Source: Candidatus Lindowbacteria bacterium RIFCSPLOWO2_12_FULL_62_27
GTDB lineage: Bacteria > Lindowbacteria > 2-12-FULL-62-27
Assembly: GCA_001784175.1 (NCBI GenBank)
Contig: MFPR01000004.1
Span: 124,001-188,000 of the forward strand
Direction: 5' to 3'
Length of the DNA stretch: 64,000 bases
The first letter of the stretch is position 1; each line of letters begins with the position of its first letter. Below, one piece after another: positions 1-61,025 of the stretch. The notes beneath the pieces are model-generated. The model was given only the letters and a program-made list of their open reading frames with translations. It was not told where the DNA came from and did not search any database. A program made the translations under genes and the position numbers.

Positions 1-245
1 GGTGTGAATCCGATTTCGTGTTCGCCGCCTTGGGAGTTCCACGCCGCCAGCCGCCGGACATCCCACTCCGTCGCGGTCCGGCCATCGCAGTGCCGGAGAA
101 GATTCTCGAGCAGAATCTTGATCGACACCGGCAGCCGGTCCACGGACGGCGCCGATTTGGCCAACTCGGCCAGCCGGTAAATCGAGACCGTCGAATCTTT
201 CGTCTGAAGCGTTCCAAGCGCGCCGAACGTGTTTTGCTTTGACAT
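1..245 (-). CDS. acnA: aconitate hydratase A, N-terminal part (runs off left edge)
   Basis: The frame starting at the ATG at 243-245 encodes the first 81 residues of an AcnA-type aconitase, the cytosolic 4Fe-4S enzyme that interconverts citrate and isocitrate in the TCA cycle. The opening SKQNTFGALGTLQ, then SIKILLENLLRH and the GGEHEIGFTP stretch, follow the usual start of long AcnA/IRP1-type proteins. The cluster cysteines and most of the protein lie beyond the edge. No Shine-Dalgarno precedes the ATG; a -10 box ends 9 nt upstream, so the message may be leaderless. The gene diverges from the ATPase at 375. The family call is firm, but the subclass (AcnA versus a 2-methylcitrate-type paralogue) cannot be settled from the N-terminus. 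Confidence 0.85.
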   Translation of the reverse strand, partial: MSKQNTFGALGTLQTKDSTVSIYRLAELAKSAPSVDRLPVSIKILLENLLRHCDGRTATEWDVRRLAAWNSQGGEHEIGFT

Positions 246-254
246 GGCGTTGCT

Positions 255-283
255 AAAATAGGTTATTTGGGAATTTCTGACAA
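255..283 (-). promoter_or_regulatory. sigma70-type promoter for the aconitase gene
   Basis: On the minus strand a TTGTCA -35 (278-283) and TATTTT -10 (255-260) are separated by exactly 17 bp. Only 9 nt separate the -10 from the ATG at 245, so transcription would begin 2-3 nt before the start codon. This is read from the sequence; promoter activity is inferred. Confidence 0.5.
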
Positions 284-339
284 GCCGTATATGCGGTGTG
301 CGCGGTAAAAACGATTTAGTAGATGAATCTATCATTTTG

Positions 340-368
340 TTGATTTGCGCCCCCGTCTGCGGTATGAT
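340..368 (+). promoter_or_regulatory. sigma70-type promoter for the DUF4143 ATPase gene
   Basis: TTGATT (340-345), 17 bp, then TATGAT (363-368). The -10 ends 6 nt before the ATG at 375, placing the predicted first transcribed base on the start codon itself. No ribosome-binding site is present. Confidence 0.45.
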
Positions 369-374
369 CCCGCC

Positions 375-1592
375 ATGAGAAACTTTGTCCGCTCCCAGAC
401 GCGGATGCTGATGGGCAGATTGGCGGAACCCCCAAGGCTGATCCAGATCGTGGCCGGGCCGCGGCAGGTGGGGAAAACGACGGCGCTGGCGCAGGCCGTC
501 CGGGCGTTTCGCGGACGCGGATTTGCGTCTGTCTCCGTCAGCGCCGACGCCCTCGCCGCTCCCCCCCGGGACTGGATATCAGAACAGTGGGCCCGCGCCA
601 ACCGGATCGCGAAGTCGGGCCGGCCGGTCATTCTGGCGTTTGATGAGCTGCAGAAGATTCCGGGCTGGAGCGAAACCGTGAAATTGGAGTTCGACCGCAA
701 CCAGCGGCGGAGGCGGGGCGCGCGGCCGCGCGTGGTTTTGACGGGCTCGTCGGCGTTGATGGTGGAGAAGGGGCTGACCGAAAGCCTGGCGGGACGATTC
801 GAGCTGATTCGATTTCCGCATTGGAATCTGGATGAAGAAATGCGGGCATTTCGCCGCCGGCCGGATGATTTCCTCGGCCTGGGCGGATACCCGCGTCTGG
901 CCGAATTCAAATCCGACTTCCCACGGTTTCTTCAATACGTCCGGGACGCCGTCATCGAGCCGGTCCTGAGCAGGGACATTCTCCTGCTACATCCGGTGGA
1001 CAAGCCGGCGCTCTTGCGCCGCCTGTTTGAATTTGCCTGCCATCATCCGGCCGAAATCGTGTCTCTTCAGAAGATGCTCGGCCAGCTCACCGACCGCGGC
1101 AACGTCACGGTCATTTCGCATTACCTGGATCTTCTGGCCAAGGCGTTTTTGGTGACGCCGCTGCAAAAGTTCAGCCGGGAAATACTGCGAGTGCGCGCGT
1201 CCAGCCCCAAACTCATCGTGATGGCCCAGGCGCTCATCGCCGCCGTCCAAAACAAAACGCCGGCGGAGCTTGCCGTCGATCGCGAACGGCTTGGCCGCTG
1301 GGCCGAAAACGCCGTCGGCGCCCACCTGATCCGGTCCGGTCTCGACGTTTTCTACTGGCGCGACCGCGATCGGGAAATCGACTTCATCGCCGGGAAAGGC
1401 TCGGACCTGATGGCCATCGAAGTAACCTCCGGCGAACGCGGCCATTCGGCGGCGGCCGTCGAACGCCTGGCCGGCAACCTCGGCATTCACCGGTTCCTCC
1501 TCGTCGGTCCCGGCGGCGTGGACATCCCCCGGTTCCTCCGAACCCCTCCTGACCGCTGGCTCAAAAAACCCGGCGGTACTCTCGGCGGATGA
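375..1592 (+). CDS. AAA_14/DUF4143-type ATP-binding protein
   Basis: A 405-residue P-loop ATPase of the AAA_14 plus DUF4143 type, common in accessory regions of bacteria and archaea and of no settled function. Walker A is GPRQVGKTT at residues 28-36, Walker B/DEAD-like ILAFDELQKI lies near residue 90, and a sensor-like VLTGSSALMVEKGLTE follows. A winged-helix middle and a C-terminal nuclease-like patch containing REIDFIAGKG complete the usual architecture. The ATG at 375 is preferred over the TTG at 345 because the promoter -10 lies between them. The gene sits beside a toxin-antitoxin module, consistent with an accessory island. Family call solid, role unknown. Confidence 0.8.
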   Translation: MRNFVRSQTRMLMGRLAEPPRLIQIVAGPRQVGKTTALAQAVRAFRGRGFASVSVSADALAAPPRDWISEQWARANRIAKSGRPVILAFDELQKIPGWSETVKLEFDRNQRRRRGARPRVVLTGSSALMVEKGLTESLAGRFELIRFPHWNLDEEMRAFRRRPDDFLGLGGYPRLAEFKSDFPRFLQYVRDAVIEPVLSRDILLLHPVDKPALLRRLFEFACHHPAEIVSLQKMLGQLTDRGNVTVISHYLDLLAKAFLVTPLQKFSREILRVRASSPKLIVMAQALIAAVQNKTPAELAVDRERLGRWAENAVGAHLIRSGLDVFYWRDRDREIDFIAGKGSDLMAIEVTSGERGHSAAAVERLAGNLGIHRFLLVGPGGVDIPRFLRTPPDRWLKKPGGTLGG

Positions 1593-11914: not shown

Positions 11915-11935
11915 ATGATTCCACCTCCCGTTTTG

Positions 11936-11956
11936 GGGTCTCCAAGTTGGAGACCC
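11936..11956. promoter_or_regulatory. perfect 10-bp palindrome in the recA leader
   Basis: GGGTCTCCAA and TTGGAGACCC are separated by one base, 21 nt upstream of the recA start. It could be an operator, an RNA hairpin ahead of the ribosome-binding site, or a dispersed palindrome. It does not match the LexA boxes CTGT-N8-ACAG or GAAC-N4-GTTC. No convincing promoter is visible nearby. Confidence 0.5.
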
Positions 11957-12074
11957 TGTTCCCATGGCCGGCACCGTAACTTTGGGCGCAGCCGCCGTCA
12001 AACAAAATCTGTTCGGCATCCGCGCCGGCGGCCTTCACCTCCGTGTGGTGGCCGCCGCGGGTTGCCGGTTTCCA

Positions 12075-12323: not shown

Positions 12324-12875
12324 TCATGGGAATTGGGCGTCCAGAAACGTCATGACGCTCTGCCGGATATTCCCGCCGGCCGCGGGATCCATCGTGAGAT
12401 AAACACCTTCCTGTATCTTGAAACACCGGACAGATTCGGGCGCGGCCGGACGAACCGGGGGAGCGCCGGGATCGGGCCTGGGCCAGAGATCCAGCGCCGG
12501 GTCGACCGAGGCTTCGCGCATGGCCCGGTCCACGACGACGGGATCGACATCCGCGACCGCGGACAGCCGACGGAGGGGCGCGCGCCGGAGCCTCTCCTGG
12601 ATGGCGCGAATCCCGTGCCCCTGGGACTGGAGCCGCTTGATGGCGATAAGTTCGATGAGGTGCCTGCGGCCGTACAGCGCGCGGCGCCCATCAAACCGGG
12701 CCGGGCGCGACAGAAGGCCGAGCGCGGTGTAGTAGCGCGCGGTGCGTTCGTCCGGCAGATCGCGGACGCGGGAGGGGAGATCCGCGAGTTTGATGGAGAA
12801 GAGCGCGCGGTGAAGGGCGGCGATGAGATTACGAAGCCGGATTTGGGTCTCGATACGTCGGGGTTTCTTTTTCAT
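12324..12875 (-). CDS. MerR-family transcriptional regulator
   Basis: 183 residues with a MerR-type winged-helix DNA-binding domain: IKLADLPSRVRDLPDERTARYYTALGLLSRPARFDGRRALYGRRHL (in parts), then LIAIKRLQSQGHGIRAIQERL. The C-terminal part is proline-rich with a short acidic-aromatic end and has no cysteine metal site, so the effector cannot be guessed. The TARYYTALGLL helix is the recognition-helix region. Its own promoter has perfect consensus boxes with a palindrome in the spacer, a strong sign of autoregulation. It diverges from the LytM-like gene at 12986. Confidence 0.8.
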   Translation of the reverse strand: MKKKPRRIETQIRLRNLIAALHRALFSIKLADLPSRVRDLPDERTARYYTALGLLSRPARFDGRRALYGRRHLIELIAIKRLQSQGHGIRAIQERLRRAPLRRLSAVADVDPVVVDRAMREASVDPALDLWPRPDPGAPPVRPAAPESVRCFKIQEGVYLTMDPAAGGNIRQSVMTFLDAQFP

Positions 12876-12884
12876 CTTGTCCCT

Positions 12885-12913
12885 ATTATAACACTGTTAT
12901 ATGACAGTGTCAA
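12885..12913 (-). promoter_or_regulatory. perfect-consensus promoter with operator palindrome in the spacer
   Basis: TTGACA (12908-12913) and TATAAT (12885-12890) on the minus strand are exactly 17 bp apart. The palindrome ACACTGT-N6-ACAGTGT (12891-12910) fills the spacer and reaches into the -35. The ATG at 12875 begins 9 nt after the -10, so the leader would be about 3 nt. A MerR-family protein binding here would repress, or twist the spacer; that is inference. Confidence 0.8.
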
Positions 12914-25124: not shown

Positions 25125-25433
25125 CGCGCGTTCGAGGGGCTCGCGCGCGGCGAGAATCAGTGCGACCGCGGCGACTTCGTCCTTGAAATTCCGGTACGCG
25201 TACGGCCGGTCCTCGCCGGGTTTTTTGGGGATCGGAAACCGCAGGATGGGGCTCCAGCGGTATCCGCGCCGGATGTGATCGGCGACCCTCCGCAGGTTAT
25301 CCCAGAGGCGCCATTCGAAGAGGCGGACCTCGATGGTGTCGTAGTAGGGCGACTCCCACTGCCACTGGCGCGCCTTGAGAAAGGCGGCGTAGAGGATGCG
25401 GAGGTCGGCGGCGCGGTCTAAAAGGTTTATGAT
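25125..25433 (-). other. upstream coding extension of the reverse transcriptase, no canonical start
   Basis: The RT frame stays open upstream of 25124 and encodes recognisable RT sequence (LYAAFLKARQWQWESPYYD, WDNLRRVADHIRRGYRW, ILRFPIPKKPGEDRPYAY). No ATG, GTG or TTG occurs in frame between 25124 and the overlapping Minf_1886 stop codon. Translation could start at ATC/ATA (25428-25433), which overlaps that TAA, or arise by frameshifting from the upstream gene; a sequencing error is also possible. Confidence 0.75.
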
Positions 25434-25846
25434 GGCCGGCGGCGGGTGCGGGTGCGGACCGTCCGAGTGGCTTTGAGGATGGCGGCCGGAGAAAACGCCT
25501 CCTCGAAATCGAAGACGTTGCTGAAATCGGCGAGCGTGTCCTCGTCGGTCTTGGTCATTTTTCCCGCGTCCACGAGCGCAAATACGATCCGGCCGATGGT
25601 TTCCGTGGAGTCGATGCCCCAGGCGTTCAGGACCTCCCTGACCATCAGGCCGTACTCGCGCGCGGCGAGGTCCCGGACGGCCTTGCAGAGTTCCTGTCCG
25701 GAGATATGCCGCCGCTGTCGGAGGCCGCGGAGGCTCGTGTCGAGGGCGGAGAGAACGAATCCCAGCGCCTGGGGGCGGACGATCCCGCCGAGAGCCTCGT
25801 TGGCGATTTTTTCAAGTTCCTCGTATGCGCTCGTCTGTTTTTTCAT
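25427..25846 (-). CDS. Minf_1886-family protein
   Basis: 139 residues matching the Minf_1886 family: an AYEELEKIANEAL opening, FVLSALDTSLRGLRQRRHISGQELCKAVRDLA (in parts), then YGLMVREVLNAWGIDSTETIGRIVFALVDAGKMTKTDEDTLADF and FDFEEAF (in parts). The family is small, helical and uncharacterised. The ATG at 25846 is used; the earlier in-frame M has no support. No Shine-Dalgarno is present, but a promoter -10 ends 8 nt upstream. The gene overlaps the reverse transcriptase frame at its stop codon. Confidence 0.8.
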   Translation of the reverse strand: MKKQTSAYEELEKIANEALGGIVRPQALGFVLSALDTSLRGLRQRRHISGQELCKAVRDLAAREYGLMVREVLNAWGIDSTETIGRIVFALVDAGKMTKTDEDTLADFSNVFDFEEAFSPAAILKATRTVRTRTRRRPS

Positions 25847-25854
25847 TTCGGATT

Positions 25855-25883
25855 TATATATCTTACGGCCGGGAGGCGCGCAA
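25855..25883 (-). promoter_or_regulatory. candidate promoter for the Minf_1886 gene
   Basis: TTGCGC (25878-25883), 17 bp, TATATA (25855-25860) on the minus strand, then 8 nt to the ATG. It overlaps the end of the upstream CapD-like gene, so the RT pair could be transcribed separately from the glycan genes. Confidence 0.45.
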
Positions 25884-31167: not shown

Positions 31168-31195
31168 TTGCTTTCCGGCCGCCGGCTGGTAAAAT
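31168..31195 (+). promoter_or_regulatory. candidate promoter for the deacetylase-formyltransferase operon
   Basis: TTGCTT (31168-31173), 16 bp, TAAAAT (31190-31195), then 11 nt to the ATG at 31207. No Shine-Dalgarno. The predicted leader is about 5 nt. Confidence 0.45.
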
Positions 31196-31206: not shown

Positions 31207-32160
31207 ATGGCTGAACTATCCTGCATTAACATCAACTTTGATTCGTTCGGCTGGGCCCTCGGGTTGCCGCCGGGCCGGACGCGGGACCCCTCTTTTTTCG
31301 AGGTCGCCGACCGGTTCTTCGCGATCTCCGACCGGATGGGATTCAAATACACGATCTACGTCATCGGGCGGGACTTGGAGAATCCCGAGGTTGCCGCGCG
31401 GGTGCGCGACTGGCACGACCGGGGGCATGAAATCGGAAACCATTCCTACAGCCACCTGCAGAACCTGGGGTATCTCGGGGACGGCGAGATCGAGTCGGAG
31501 GTGATGAGGTCGCACGAACTGATTGCCCGGGCGTGCGGCCGGGCGCCACGGGGGTTCATCGCGCCGGCCTGGGCGACGTCACCGGCGCTGCTCCGGGTGC
31601 TGATCAGGAACCGCTATCTCTACGACACGTCGCTTCTGCCGTCCTATTTCATGTGGCTGGCCTCGGCCAAAGTCTGGTGGAACTTCCGTGGAGACGAGCG
31701 CCAGAAATCGGTCCTGCAGCGGAAAGACCGGCTGGCGAATCTGATCGGGCGGCGCCGGCCGTTTTTCACGGACGGCGCCTCGCTGACCCCGCAGGCGGCG
31801 GGCGGCGGGCTGCTTGTCATTCCTTTGCCTGTGACCCCGGTGTTTCGCCTGCCGCTCTGGCACACGATGGCATTCTTTTTTCCGCGCTGGATCTTCGACC
31901 ACGTCCTTCGGACCACCCTCCGGATGCGATTCTTCTATTATCTGGTCCATCCCTCCGATCTGGCCGACCTCGACGACATCCCGGCGGGATACATGGAGAG
32001 CAGCCGCGTGCTTGAAAAACAGCGGATGGCCGTGCCGGTGGCGGAAAAGATACGCCAGATGGAGACATTTTTGGCGGTGGTCAAAGAGCGCAGCGGCAGG
32101 ATCGTCACGCTGGAGACCATCGCCCAGGCCCTCTGGAAGGAGAAACAGGGGGCGCCGTGA
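31207..32160 (+). CDS. polysaccharide deacetylase-family protein (NodB fold)
   Basis: 317 residues. NodB motif 2 is HEIGNHSYSHLQ with the metal histidines. Motif 1 reads NINFDSFGW, where the usual TFDDG is replaced, so one catalytic/metal aspartate is missing or substituted. A GFIAPAWATSPALL segment corresponds to motif 3. The family removes N-acetyl groups from surface sugars. The next gene, a formyltransferase, overlaps by 4 nt, which would fit deacetylation followed by N-formylation of an amino sugar (inference). Confidence 0.75.
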   Translation: MAELSCININFDSFGWALGLPPGRTRDPSFFEVADRFFAISDRMGFKYTIYVIGRDLENPEVAARVRDWHDRGHEIGNHSYSHLQNLGYLGDGEIESEVMRSHELIARACGRAPRGFIAPAWATSPALLRVLIRNRYLYDTSLLPSYFMWLASAKVWWNFRGDERQKSVLQRKDRLANLIGRRRPFFTDGASLTPQAAGGGLLVIPLPVTPVFRLPLWHTMAFFFPRWIFDHVLRTTLRMRFFYYLVHPSDLADLDDIPAGYMESSRVLEKQRMAVPVAEKIRQMETFLAVVKERSGRIVTLETIAQALWKEKQGAP

Positions 32161-35112: not shown

Positions 35113-35141
35113 TTGAAGCCGTTTCGCCGCGCTGGTACGAT
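35113..35141 (+). promoter_or_regulatory. promoter for the SGNH-TPR gene
   Basis: TTGAAG (35113-35118), 17 bp, TACGAT (35136-35141), 10 nt to the ATG at 35152. No Shine-Dalgarno; predicted leader 3-4 nt. Confidence 0.45.
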
Positions 35142-35151
35142 CCGGGCGATA

Positions 35152-36918
35152 ATGGAGATCAACGGACCTCCCGCGCGCGCGAAACGGCGGGGGCTGATTG
35201 TCTCGATCAGCGTTCTTGCGGCCGCCGGCCTCGTATTGGCCACCGAAGTGATTTGCCGCCGGTATGTCCGGCGATGGGATCCCCAGCCCGAGTTTTATCA
35301 CGGTCTCATGACCTACCATCAGCCGCCGCTCGATTATGGGCTGCGGCCCAACCATGCCGTCACCGATACGGCCTATGGGCGTGAGGTGATGATGAAGATC
35401 AATTCCTATGGATTCCGGTATTCAAAAGAGCCGGCCGTTCCGAAACCGGCGGGCCTGGTCCGGATTTTTGTGGTGGGCGGGTCGGCCGCGTTCGGGCTGT
35501 ATGTGTACGAGGAGGAGATGTTTTCCGGGCAGTTGGAGTTATATTTGAAAAAGGTTCTGGGCGACGACAAAGTTGAGGTCATCAACGCGGCCGTGCCGGG
35601 CTACACGACCCAGCAGGAACTGCAGATGCTCGTGTTCCGGGTCCTGCCGTTCGATCCCGACCTCGTGATCCTCTACGACGGCTTCAACGACATGGCGGTG
35701 CTTCTGGCGGCGACCGAGAAACTGGGACGCTTTGGATTCGAGAACGAGTTGATGAAACAAATGCGGCTCCGGCGGACCCTGGCGGAACAGTCGCCGTACC
35801 GGCTGCTGTACATGGATTACATCGCGTATTCGGGGATTGCCCGCATGGTCCGGCATTGGCGGGCCGGTCCGGCCGTGGCGGACACCGGCGATATTCAGCG
35901 GGAGCCGCAGCCGGAGTCGGTCGATTTCTACGGGCGAGGGGTCCGGACGATGGCGGGGGCCACGCGGGGTCACGGCAGCGATTTCATCGTGGCATTTCAG
36001 CCGCACCTTTTTTATGGAGAGTATCCGCGAACGCCGAGGGAGATGGGACTGATCGCCGGCGAACACAAGAGCAAACCCAAGCGGGCGGAACTTTTCAAGC
36101 GATACACGCCGCGTTTCGCGGCGGCCGCACGGGATGCGGCGCGCTCGGCGGGCGCCCGGTTCGTGGACTTGACCGACGCCTTCAAAGACGCCCCAGCGGA
36201 TTGTTTGCTGGACTTGGTGCATCCGTCGCCTTATGGTCATCTGGTCATCACAAGGCGGCTCCTTGAGGAAATCGAGTCCATTCTGACTGCGAAGAACCCG
36301 GCGGGGTCCGGCGACGCGGGGAGACTTCATCCATCGTTTGCGCAGGTTCGTGCGCAGATCGACGACCGGCTCGCCCGGCACGCCGGCAGCAGGGGCATGG
36401 CGGTGCACAATCCGGGCGAGAACGAACAGAGCGCGTATTTGGAGCACATCCGGTACCATCTGTCGGGCGCGCTGGCCGGAGGCGTCGCGGGGGACCGCGA
36501 AATCAACCGGATCGTCAACGCCCTCGAGGTCGACCCGGCCAACGGGTACGCGCATTACGATCTGGGGAACCTTCTGCTGAACAAGGGCCACTTCGCATTT
36601 GCGGCGTCCCATTTGGAGGAATCGATCCGGCGCCTGCCGGACAATGCCGAGATGTTTTCCGTCCGCGTGATCGCACACAACAACGCAGGCTACGCGCTGC
36701 ACAAGGCCGGCCGGCAGGACGAGGCGATCGCGCACCTGCAGGAAGCGTTGAGGATGAAACCTGATTACGCCCGGGCGCATTATACGATGGGCCTCGTCTG
36801 CGTTGACAAGAAGGACGCCGCGGGCGCGCGGAAACATTTTTCCGAGGCCCTGCGGCTGGATCCGCAGAATCAGGGCGCGCGGGCGTATCTGGAAAAATTG
36901 AATCCCATGATGCGGTAG
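35152..36918 (+). CDS. membrane-anchored SGNH-hydrolase-like protein with C-terminal TPRs
   Basis: 588 residues. A single N-terminal transmembrane helix (LIVSISVLAAAGLVLATEVI) is followed by an SGNH fold: IFVVGGSAAFG (block I; Ser in GGS), NAAVPGYTTQQEL (block II), LVILYDGFNDM (block III, N) and a DLVHPSPYGH catalytic D-x-x-H (block V). Such enzymes de-esterify or O-acylate surface glycans. Residues about 460-585 are three TPR units (YAHYDLGNLLLNKGHFAFA; YALHKAGRQDEAIAHL; ARAHYTMGLVCVDKKDAAGA). It is directly followed by the YfhO-like gene. Confidence 0.8.
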   Translation: MEINGPPARAKRRGLIVSISVLAAAGLVLATEVICRRYVRRWDPQPEFYHGLMTYHQPPLDYGLRPNHAVTDTAYGREVMMKINSYGFRYSKEPAVPKPAGLVRIFVVGGSAAFGLYVYEEEMFSGQLELYLKKVLGDDKVEVINAAVPGYTTQQELQMLVFRVLPFDPDLVILYDGFNDMAVLLAATEKLGRFGFENELMKQMRLRRTLAEQSPYRLLYMDYIAYSGIARMVRHWRAGPAVADTGDIQREPQPESVDFYGRGVRTMAGATRGHGSDFIVAFQPHLFYGEYPRTPREMGLIAGEHKSKPKRAELFKRYTPRFAAAARDAARSAGARFVDLTDAFKDAPADCLLDLVHPSPYGHLVITRRLLEEIESILTAKNPAGSGDAGRLHPSFAQVRAQIDDRLARHAGSRGMAVHNPGENEQSAYLEHIRYHLSGALAGGVAGDREINRIVNALEVDPANGYAHYDLGNLLLNKGHFAFAASHLEESIRRLPDNAEMFSVRVIAHNNAGYALHKAGRQDEAIAHLQEALRMKPDYARAHYTMGLVCVDKKDAAGARKHFSEALRLDPQNQGARAYLEKLNPMMR

Positions 36919-41646: not shown

Positions 41647-43268
41647 AAAGGGGTCGACCCCCCTTGAAGACAGAGACGTTGCCTTGGATTCTTCTGCCGC
41701 TCGCGTTCCTCTTCGTCCTCACGGTCCGGCTGAACCTGCGGGACATGCCGATCTCGAGCGACGAGGGGATCTACTGCTATTATGGCCAGATGGTGCTGGA
41801 CGGCCAGCCGCCCTACCGGTACTTTTACGAGATCAAGCCGCCCGGACTCTACTACGCCTACGGATTTCTCATGCTGATCTTCGGTGACACGCTCCGGGGC
41901 ATTCACATGGCCTTTACCGTGATCAATCTTCTCACGATGGCGATGGTGTTTTGGATCGGCCGGGAGCTTTTGCGGGACACGCTGGCGGCGACGCTGGCCG
42001 CCGTGTCGTTCGGGTTTCTTTCGCTGGGTCCGTTCGTGTTCGGATTTTCGGTGATCGCGGAACCGCTCATGGGATTTTTCAGCACGGGGGCGCTCCTGCT
42101 GGGGCTGCTCGGATTGAACCGGGAGAAACCGGCGCTGCTGTTTCTGTCCGGGATCGCGGCGCACATGGCGTTTCAGATCAAACAAACCGGCGGGCTGTTC
42201 GGGCTGGGCGTGGCGCTGGTGATCGGCGCGTATGATCTCTCCCGCCGCCCCATCGCATGGTCCGCGCTCGCGGCGCGCCTCGGCCTGTATTTGGCCGGCC
42301 ACGCGGCGCTGCTCGGGATTGCGCTTGCGGCCATCGTGGCGCAGGGCGCATGGAACGATTTTGTGTTCTGGGCGTACCGGTTTTCGACGCAGTATGTATC
42401 CGAGGTGCCGATGTCACAGGGGTGGCAGATGCTCAAGTTTTTTTTCCCGAAGGTCGTCGACCGGTATGAGGTCTTCTGGATTCTGGCGGTGATCGGCTGG
42501 GCCGGCGTTTTGTTTTCGAGCCTCGGCGCGTTTCGGAAATGGACCTTGTCGATCTGGATCGCCGTGTCGTTCGCGTCGCTCGCGCCCGGCTGGCGGTTTT
42601 ACTCGCATTACTGGATGAACATCGTTCCGGCCGTGTCTCTGGCGGCCGGCGCCGCCGGCATGGCGATCATCGCACTCCTCAAGCGCCGGATGGGTCCGGC
42701 GCCGGCGGCCCTGTACGCGCTCTTGGCGGCTGCCCTGGCGGTGGGACAGCCGCTCGTTCTTGAGGAGGAATATTATTTCCGGCCGGACCCCGTGAAGATC
42801 TGGCGCCGGGTCGAGGGATCGCGCCCGTTTCCGGAAGCCAAAGTGATCGGCGACTACGTGGGCCAGCGGACGCGGGAGGGCGAGACGATTGTGGTCATCG
42901 GCACGGAGCCCGAGGTGTATTTTTATTCCGGCCGGCGCTGCCCCTCGCGACACAGCTATTTCAACTATCTGGTCTGCGCCCATCCCCTGCACAGGGAGTG
43001 GCAGAAAGAATTCATCGCCGACGTGGAGGCGGCGCGGCCGAAGATGTTCGTATTTTTCAAGCACCCGCAATCGCATTTTATGAGTCCCCACGCGGACCAG
43101 GCCATCTTCACGTGGGCGTTTGATTATATCCAGAAATACTACCGGCCGGTGGCTGTGGCCGACATGCTGTCTCCGGAAACAACGGACTACGTCTACGGAA
43201 CGCGCGCCGAAACATACCGGCCGCAAAGTCCGCTGTACATCCGGGTGTTTGAACGGACGGCGCCATGA
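41643..43268 (+). CDS. GT39/PMT-2-like membrane glycosyltransferase
   Basis: 541 residues, about ten transmembrane helices. Near the N-terminus the family motif PISSDEGIYCYYGQMVLDGQPPYRYFYEIKPPGLYYAYGF (in parts) contains the DEG acidic pair used by lipid-linked GT-C transferases, and a KPPG loop. It would transfer a sugar from polyprenyl phosphate on the outer side of the membrane. The ATG at 41643 overlaps the DegT stop (ATGA). Confidence 0.85.
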   Translation: MKRGRPPLKTETLPWILLPLAFLFVLTVRLNLRDMPISSDEGIYCYYGQMVLDGQPPYRYFYEIKPPGLYYAYGFLMLIFGDTLRGIHMAFTVINLLTMAMVFWIGRELLRDTLAATLAAVSFGFLSLGPFVFGFSVIAEPLMGFFSTGALLLGLLGLNREKPALLFLSGIAAHMAFQIKQTGGLFGLGVALVIGAYDLSRRPIAWSALAARLGLYLAGHAALLGIALAAIVAQGAWNDFVFWAYRFSTQYVSEVPMSQGWQMLKFFFPKVVDRYEVFWILAVIGWAGVLFSSLGAFRKWTLSIWIAVSFASLAPGWRFYSHYWMNIVPAVSLAAGAAGMAIIALLKRRMGPAPAALYALLAAALAVGQPLVLEEEYYFRPDPVKIWRRVEGSRPFPEAKVIGDYVGQRTREGETIVVIGTEPEVYFYSGRRCPSRHSYFNYLVCAHPLHREWQKEFIADVEAARPKMFVFFKHPQSHFMSPHADQAIFTWAFDYIQKYYRPVAVADMLSPETTDYVYGTRAETYRPQSPLYIRVFERTAP

Positions 43269-43277
43269 AGGTATCGT
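43249..43277 (+). promoter_or_regulatory. internal promoter before the FdtA-like gene
   Basis: TTGAAC (43249-43254), 17 bp, TATCGT (43272-43277), 9 nt to the ATG at 43287. It lies over the end of the GT39-like gene. No Shine-Dalgarno. Confidence 0.4.
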
Positions 43278-43286
43278 ACCGTTGAC

Positions 43287-43673
43287 ATGGCGGAATTGAT
43301 CGAGCTCAAGACGTTTTCAGACAAGCGCGGAAATTTATCAGTGATCGAACAGCCGCAGATCCCGTTCGAGATCAAACGGATTTTCTATATTTACGGCGTG
43401 GACGGCTCGACCCGGGGCGGCCACCGGCACCGGCGGACGCGTCAGGCGCTGATTTGCCTGCAGGGCGGGTGCGTCGTCGAGAACGACGATGGCCGGCGAT
43501 ACGAAACGTTCGTCCTGGACCGGCCGAACCAATGCCTGATTCTGGAGCCGCCCGACTGGCATCTGCTCCGCGAGTTTTCGCCCGGCGCGATTCTCCTCGT
43601 GCTGGCGTCGGAACTATTTGACGAGAGGGATTACATCCACGACAAGTACGCGCCGCGGGGCGGGGACCAGTGA
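43287..43673 (+). CDS. FdtA/QdtA-type dTDP-sugar 3,4-ketoisomerase (WxcM-like cupin)
   Basis: 128 residues, a cupin of the FdtA/QdtA/WxcM-C type that turns dTDP-4-keto-6-deoxyglucose into the 3-keto form. The family histidine element is GGHRHRRTRQALICLQGGCVVE (split: GGHRHRRTRQAL, LQGGCVVE), with WHLLREFSPGAILLVLAS at the end. The N-terminal DKRGNLSVIEQPQIPFEIKRIFYIYGV is typical. It is a key marker that the operon makes a 3-amino-3,6-dideoxyhexose. Confidence 0.9.
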   Translation: MAELIELKTFSDKRGNLSVIEQPQIPFEIKRIFYIYGVDGSTRGGHRHRRTRQALICLQGGCVVENDDGRRYETFVLDRPNQCLILEPPDWHLLREFSPGAILLVLASELFDERDYIHDKYAPRGGDQ

Positions 43674-60586: not shown

Positions 60587-60660
60587 CGGGGTGGTGAGAT
60601 TCGAACTCACGACCACACGCACCCCATGCGTGTGCGCTACCAAGCTGCGCTACACCCCGT
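60587..60660 (-). tRNA. tRNA-Pro (GGG)
   Basis: Minus-strand cloverleaf: acceptor CGGGGTG with CACCCCG, D-arm GCGCAGCTTGGTAGCGC, anticodon arm CACGC-ATGGGGT-GCGTG with anticodon GGG, and T-arm GTGAGTTCGAATCTCAC. Its 5' end overlaps the 3' end of the upstream MerR-type gene by 11 nt. Confidence 0.95.
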
Positions 60661-60973
60661 CGTACTCCCCACGAAGAATCTTGAGCGCCTCCTGCAAATC
60701 CTCCCGCACGGCCGACAGCGAATCCGACTGCTGGGCCAGGCGCCGGCGGCGCTCCAGCCGGCGCTTGACGCCGACCATCGTCATGCCCTCATCTCGAAGC
60801 ATCTGGCGGATGCGCTGCAAGAGGGCCACGTCCTCCGTCCGGTATCGCCGCTGGCCGGTTTTCGTCTTTTCCGGCCGCAGCGCCGGGAAGGATTTTTCCC
60901 AGTAGCGGATGACATGCGGATTTTCGCCGATCGCCTCGCTCACCTGACGGATCGTATAGTATAGCTGATTCAT
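60650..60973 (-). CDS. MerR-family transcriptional regulator (short)
   Basis: 107 residues, essentially only a MerR winged-helix domain: YYTIRQVSEAIGENPHVIRYWEKSFPALRPEKTKTGQRRYRTEDVALLQRIRQML (in parts) and a short coiled coil. Similar small proteins (HspR/CueR-like cores) regulate envelope or stress genes. Its stop codon lies inside tRNA-Pro. A consensus-like promoter ends 11 nt before the ATG. Confidence 0.85.
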   Translation of the reverse strand: MNQLYYTIRQVSEAIGENPHVIRYWEKSFPALRPEKTKTGQRRYRTEDVALLQRIRQMLRDEGMTMVGVKRRLERRRRLAQQSDSLSAVREDLQEALKILRGEYDGV

Positions 60974-60984
60974 ACCCAGCCGGC

Positions 60985-61013
60985 ATTATATATATATGGA
61001 GAGGCGGACGCAA
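60985..61013 (-). promoter_or_regulatory. promoter for the short MerR-type gene
   Basis: TTGCGT (61008-61013), 17 bp, TATAAT (60985-60990) on the minus strand; 11 nt then the ATG at 60973. Near-leaderless. The spacer contains an ATATATA run. Confidence 0.55.
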
Positions 61014-61025
61014 TGCCGCGCCGCG

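Follow-up and report, generated by a model that had tools for sequence, protein, structure and literature searches.

Promoter-like sequences close to start codons suggest leaderless or nearly leaderless expression in a Lindowbacteria family

In a stretch of 64,000 nucleotides from Candidatus Lindowbacteria bacterium RIFCSPLOWO2_12_FULL_62_27 (hereafter the window, G000:C4:124001-188000), several genes are preceded by a promoter-like sequence whose -10 hexamer ends only a few nucleotides before the start codon. This raises the question of whether they are transcribed into mRNAs with little or no leader and translated without a Shine-Dalgarno (SD) sequence, as a preliminary description of the window had proposed for eight genes, and whether such an arrangement is regular in the lineage or a product of selection by the eye.

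Eight promoter-like sites and the contrast of recA

All eight promoter and start pairs proved to be present, position, strand and distance included; the general form attributed to them did not hold for the Minf_1886 gene, whose -10 reads TATATA and not TAnnnT. Read directly, the spacer is N16 for the deacetylase and N17 at the other seven sites. The genes, their predicted promoters and that of recA are as follows.

1..245, minus strand: aconitase-type ORF, first 81 codons of 900 aa, continuing beyond the window (ORF reading)
255..283, minus strand: near-leaderless promoter of the aconitase-type gene, TTGTCA-N17-TATTTT-9-ATG
340..368, plus strand: leaderless-type promoter, DUF4143 ATPase gene, TTGATT-N17-TATGAT-6-ATG (ATG at 375)
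375..1592, plus strand: AAA_14/DUF4143 ATPase (Pfam PF13635, PF13173)
11973..12001, minus strand: leadered promoter of the contrast gene recA, TTGACG-N17-TACGGT, at 58 nt from its SD-led ATG, conserved in the relative G002
12324..12875, minus strand: MerR-type HTH protein (weak Pfam match, PF13411, E 3e-6)
12885..12913, minus strand: perfect consensus promoter of the MerR-like gene, TTGACA-N17-TATAAT-9-ATG
25427..25846, minus strand: Minf_1886 family protein (NCBIfam TIGR04138, 107.8 bits, cut-off 60)
25855..25883, minus strand: promoter of the Minf_1886 gene, TTGCGC-N17-TATATA-8-ATG
31168..31195, plus strand: promoter of the deacetylase gene, TTGCTT-N16-TAAAAT-11-ATG
31207..32160, plus strand: polysaccharide deacetylase (PF01522)
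35113..35141, plus strand: promoter of the SGNH gene, TTGAAG-N17-TACGAT-10-ATG
35152..36918, plus strand: SGNH/GDSL lipase with TPR repeats (PF13472 and TPR models)
43249..43277, plus strand: promoter of the FdtA gene, TTGAAC-N17-TATCGT-9-ATG
43287..43673, plus strand: FdtA/WxcM-like protein (PF05523)
60650..60973, minus strand: MerR-family regulator (PF13411, E 1e-20)
60985..61013, minus strand: promoter of the second MerR gene, TTGCGT-N17-TATAAT-11-ATG

Family searches (Pfam, NCBIfam) back the names of seven of the eight genes; the 81-aa aconitase fragment gave no match in Pfam, and the 900-aa ORF was recognized as an aconitase-type protein by eye. The promoter at 12885-12913 (minus strand) contains an inverted repeat, ACACTGT-CATATA-ACAGTGT, lying between and reaching into the hexamers, which is possibly an autoregulatory operator.

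The recA gene had been named as one without the near-start arrangement, and this was borne out, as it has a leadered promoter and GGGAGG before its ATG. We considered recA as a further near-leaderless gene, since an in-frame ATG stands 7 nt past its -10, and rejected it: this ATG is missing in G002, so that its position is probably a coincidence. The recA leader (11915-12001, minus strand) carries a repeat, GGTCTCC-AACTT-GGAGACC, ahead of the SD (L230, L229), and G002 has a similar leader repeat together with an identical promoter block, CAAAGTTACGGTGC.

Taken by itself, the window shows a modest excess over permuted motifs. A scan of any ATG or GTG ORF of at least 60 aa found eight near-start promoters. 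When the motif pair was permuted (17 versions, several having letters in common with genuine promoters), the number of matches ranged from 0 to 9, and in 16 other bins of distance from 0 to 4.

Enrichment of -10 elements ahead of start codons

The analysis was extended to 847,730 nt and then to 1,215,405 nt (1.22 Mb, 28%) of the genome, which comprises 4.39 Mb in 44 contigs and is 94% complete. Genes were called with a home-made program that relies on coding statistics and start-codon frequencies and makes no use of ribosome-binding-site or promoter information, and were classed by their upstream neighbour as divergent (162), same-strand with a gap of 15-49 nt (117), of at least 50 nt (240), or of less than 15 nt (312). 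The last class was taken as operon-internal, the remaining 519 starts being non-operon-internal, and starts at sequence ends were excluded. We defined a near-start site as TAnnnT ending 5-11 nt before the start and a full promoter as TTG-N16/18-TAnnnT; expected site counts were derived from spacers of 15-44 nt, and the sequences of the divergent genes were shuffled by dinucleotides.

Scoring -10-like hexamers against shuffled sequences was the check that the preliminary description had proposed for itself, and on this 28% of the genome it came out strongly positive: 52 of the 162 divergent genes carry a near-start site, whereas 1,000 shuffles gave 9.2 such genes on average (sd 2.9) and never more than 19. 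The absence of -10 enrichment at 6-11 nt, named there as the outcome that would speak against the idea, did not occur. By sites, the divergent class has 55 against 9.8 expected and the same-strand class with gaps of 15-49 nt has 15 against 5.6, while with gaps of at least 50 nt the excess is weak and not significant (18 against 13.3, p 0.13) and at operon-internal starts there is none (5 against 3.7). An additional sample of 367,675 nt (20 stretches), new but not blind given that the caller had been retrained on all DNA of this genome, gave sites in 9 of 30 divergent genes (9 against 1.6 expected) and no excess in the same-strand classes. The arrangement had been called widespread, which is apt for divergent genes, roughly one in three of which carry it, and, background included, for 83 of the 519 non-operon-internal starts (16%), but not for operon-internal starts, where it occurs in about 1% (4/312).

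The near-start sites also look like promoters in their upstream part. Of the 88 near-start non-internal sites, 53% have a TTG 16-18 nt ahead of the -10, compared with 2% of 603 TAnnnT sites in coding sequence; at exactly 17 nt the proportions are 45% for the near sites, 1% for the coding sites and 13% for 188 sites with a spacing of 15-59 nt. Full promoters at 5-11 nt precede 47 of the 519 non-operon-internal starts (shuffled mean 1.38, maximum 6 in 300 shuffles). By distance to the start, the counts of full promoters are 47 (5-11 nt), 1 (12-20 nt), 24 (21-40 nt) and 13 (41-60 nt), so that roughly half of those recognizable within 60 nt of a start (47/85) are of the near-leaderless kind; the gap at 12-20 nt would be expected if leaders of that length were too long for leaderless initiation and too short for an SD.

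Within the near class the most frequent spacing is 6 nt, which places the first T at -12 (16 of 55 divergent and 28 of 88 non-internal sites). Spacings of 9-11 nt account for 24 of the 55 divergent and 34 of the 88 non-internal sites, about 12 of the latter 34 being background by the rate at spacers 15-44. They also make up 17 of the 47 full promoters in this genome, so that among promoters as such the wide range of distances is genuine, and 27 of 68 across the three genera considered below.

Conservation in two genera and competing explanations

At a completeness of 80% or more, a search of the phylum yielded just three genomes, and these form a single family. The two relatives belong to two other genera of that family and were sampled in part (G001, 328,425 nt; G002, 168,312 nt). 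Divergent genes show the same excess in G001 (14 near-start sites against 2.3 expected in 48 genes) and few sites in G002 (2 against 0.2 in 12 genes). Among genes with a full near-start promoter in the window genome, five of seven testable ortholog pairs keep such a promoter 4-14 nt from the homologous start; the corresponding figures are 2 of 50 for other non-internal genes and 1 of 45 for internal ones. In a sixth, read by eye, the promoter lies 6 nt before an ATG that is itself shifted by 3 nt, and in the remaining one there is no promoter near the homologous start.

Among the window genes, the aconitase-type ortholog in G002 (77% identical) has TTGTCA-N18-TAGAAT-6-ATG, where the spacing in the window is 9 nt, and the Minf_1886 ortholog in G001 has TTGAAT-N17-TATAGT-9-ATG. 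In G002 the corresponding promoter, TTGCCT-N17-TATAGT (L147), is followed after 6 nt by the ATG of a 15-codon ORF upstream of the Minf_1886 ortholog, and the TGA of this ORF overlaps the ATG of the ortholog as ATGA, which suggests a leaderless upstream ORF coupled to it. The promoter of the second MerR gene shares the block CTCTCCATATATATATAnT in the three genera, at 11 nt from the start in the window, 12 in G001 and 13 in G002. Beyond what the hexamers require, CTCTCCATATATATATA at 60985-61020 (minus strand) is kept over the three genera (L234, L235) and is perhaps the operator of this MerR-family regulator. Spacing drifts between orthologs, from 6-8 nt in one genus to 11-13 nt in another. 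For the deacetylase there is no close ortholog in G001 and G002 (best 31%).

It is improbable that the starts have been misassigned, the true ones lying downstream behind SD sequences and the transcripts being normally leadered. The called starts are uncertain in places and some are wrong, as for the second MerR gene and for the DUF4143 ATPase, where the caller picked the next ATG, at 405, instead of 375, and, as recA demonstrates, an ATG may by chance stand 7 nt past the -10 of a leadered promoter. Where orthologs have full near-start promoters, however, they mostly align from residue 1 in both genomes and have their promoters conserved directly upstream; near-start sites favour ATG (48 of 52 divergent genes against 87 of 110 others); and random misplacement would not be expected to leave a single full promoter at 12-20 nt beside the many at 5-11.

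Less credible still is that the near-start motif is not a promoter but a translational signal, A/T-rich and of the S1 type or similar to a Bacteroidetes enhancer. Upstream A/T bias may also reflect S1 binding (Nakagawa, 2017; PMC5397173), an S1-domain protein is present with a score below the curated cut-off, and Bacteroidota loci run through the same pipeline have a mild near-start TAnnnT excess of their own (8 sites against 3.0 expected, p 0.013). Such a signal should nonetheless mark operon-internal genes too, where we found no excess, and it would have no need of a TTG placed exactly 17 nt further upstream. The caution raised by Nakagawa is addressed by these two tests, on operon position and on the -35. 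As for chance matches in A/T-rich intergenic DNA that the preliminary description happened to single out, permuted motifs do reach nine matches in the window, yet the shuffles refute this origin at genome scale, and with the positional peak and the additional sample they reduce its likelihood to next to nothing.

Transcript start points and translation without Shine-Dalgarno sequences

Near-start -10 elements and SD sequences seldom meet, and the earlier contention that they avoid each other was confirmed: by a crude core match (GGAG/GAGG/AGGA), an SD core precedes 3 of the 52 divergent genes with a near TAnnnT and 34 of the 110 others (Fisher p 0.0002). The 16S rRNA of this organism retains the anti-SD, GGATCACCTCCTTT, and SD-led genes are present, which indicates that SD-led and leaderless-type routes coexist.

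The likely first transcribed base was approached from the letters around it. In three genomes together, a pyrimidine precedes the start codon at 34 of 41 promoters spaced 5-8 nt; background starts of the window genome have one in 226 of 429 cases, and the 9-11 nt class lies in between (19/27). At 111 promoters lying 15-200 nt upstream, YR steps are commonest at 6/7 (37%) and 8/9 (34%) nt past the -10, from which initiation on the A of the AUG is predicted for spacings of 6 and 8 nt.

Very probably, then, this lineage has sigma-70-type promoters whose mRNAs are leaderless or almost so, with ordinary SD genes alongside. With a -10 ending 6-8 nt before the start, RNA polymerase would begin at the A of the start codon; with one ending 9-11 nt (rarely 12-13) before it, the RNA would begin a few nucleotides ahead. 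Such an mRNA would have no room for an SD, and its 5'-terminal or near-terminal AUG would probably enter the leaderless route, through recognition by the initiator tRNA and with 70S ribosomes or IF2 assistance, which would run beside ordinary SD-led and operon-coupled initiation. What the sequence shows is the architecture of the promoters, their position, their restriction to promoter-proximal genes, their avoidance of SDs and their conservation; both the 5' ends at these positions and the SD-free translation are what we infer from it. Overall, the evidence supports the view that the original observation is real and that its interpretation was correct in the main line.

The wider spacings allow a further proposal, which we put forward tentatively and at somewhat less than an even chance, that the family regularly uses mRNAs with leaders of 1-6 nt, neither leaderless nor SD-led, on which ribosomes would initiate well. 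Alternatively, RNA polymerase may start further downstream in these cases, on the A of the AUG; the frequency of the preceding pyrimidine at 9-11 nt is intermediate between the 5-8 nt class and background. It is this wide range of spacings that deserves experimental work.

A new case among users of leaderless expression

In a RecA tree the window groups with a bacterium, L071, close to Omnitrophota and to one acidobacterial row; the forks there are unstarred or open and the branch is long. The RecA scan retrieved no close relative. The 16S rRNA of the lineage carries the standard EUB338 site, and the NCBIfam family TIGR04138 (Plancto_Ver_chp) is found in its genome. A viral_contigs scan with another ORF of the window gave no match.

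The arrangement is of a kind already known. Zheng et al. (2011; PMC3160421) describe, for many bacteria, TA-led leaderless genes with a TANNNT core, read as a -10 box, whose first T lies some 12 nt ahead of the start; they exceed dinucleotide shuffles and co-exist with SD genes, the high cases including Actinobacteria and Deinococcus-Thermus. The present lineage resembles these genes in its first T at -12, its excess over shuffles and its avoidance of the SD. In Deinococcus-Thermus, Zhong et al. (2025; PMC12340547) report a reporter-tested TANNNT promoter adjoining ORFs, mostly at 6-7 bp and in about a third of D. radiodurans genes; here, by comparison, 9-11 nt spacings are common among non-internal sites, and a TTG often stands at the -35 position with a distance of 17 nt.

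Actinobacteria were run through the same pipeline as a pool of 26 named loci and 20 stretches of 4 genomes, with 3 lower-G+C loci left out and a G+C of 0.70 against 0.62 here. Their 210 divergent genes contain 24 near sites where 10.0 are expected, and every one of the 24 has a spacing of 6-8 nt. From this tight spacing the lineage departs: sites at 9-11 nt make up 34/88 of its non-internal sites against 1/54 (Fisher p 1.4e-7), and 24/55 of its divergent ones against 0/24 (Fisher p 3e-5). Bacillota and Pseudomonadota loci showed no near-start excess, and Omnitrophota, L071 and other small groups offered very few divergent starts; from the Omnitrophota set L200 was excluded, its contig being of the same length as the contig of L065.

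In mycobacteria, leaderless genes have a -10 at the normal distance from a start codon at +1 and are conserved between species, and N-terminal support was obtained for 4 of 558 starts at +2 to +5 as opposed to 51 of 1098 at +1, figures that the authors did not consider definitive (Shell et al., 2015; PMC4633059). Unlike there, the present lineage often has spacings from which leaders this short would be predicted. Within Verrucomicrobiota, Cappable-seq placed 10% of the mapped transcription start sites of Akkermansia muciniphila on annotated start codons (PMC4782308), and Akkermansia is listed among SD-scarce organisms with a conserved anti-SD (PMC10783764); these are measured RNA ends, whereas in our lineage, which belongs to another phylum, the arrangement is known from its DNA alone. 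Akkermansia was the sole related case met in a limited literature search on leaderless use in Verrucomicrobia, Akkermansia, candidate phyla and Planctomycetes. Across bacteria, GeneMarkS-2 estimates quoted with StartLink attribute leaderless transcription to 21.6% of species (PMC9581028).

What is new is therefore the case and not the kind: a poorly sampled lineage would join those that express a considerable fraction of their promoter-proximal genes from leaderless or near-leaderless mRNAs. Gene finders that expect an SD will, as a consequence, misplace starts there. Moreover, its wide spacing between -10 and start offers a concrete case in which to ask whether leaders of 1-6 nt are translated efficiently in nature.
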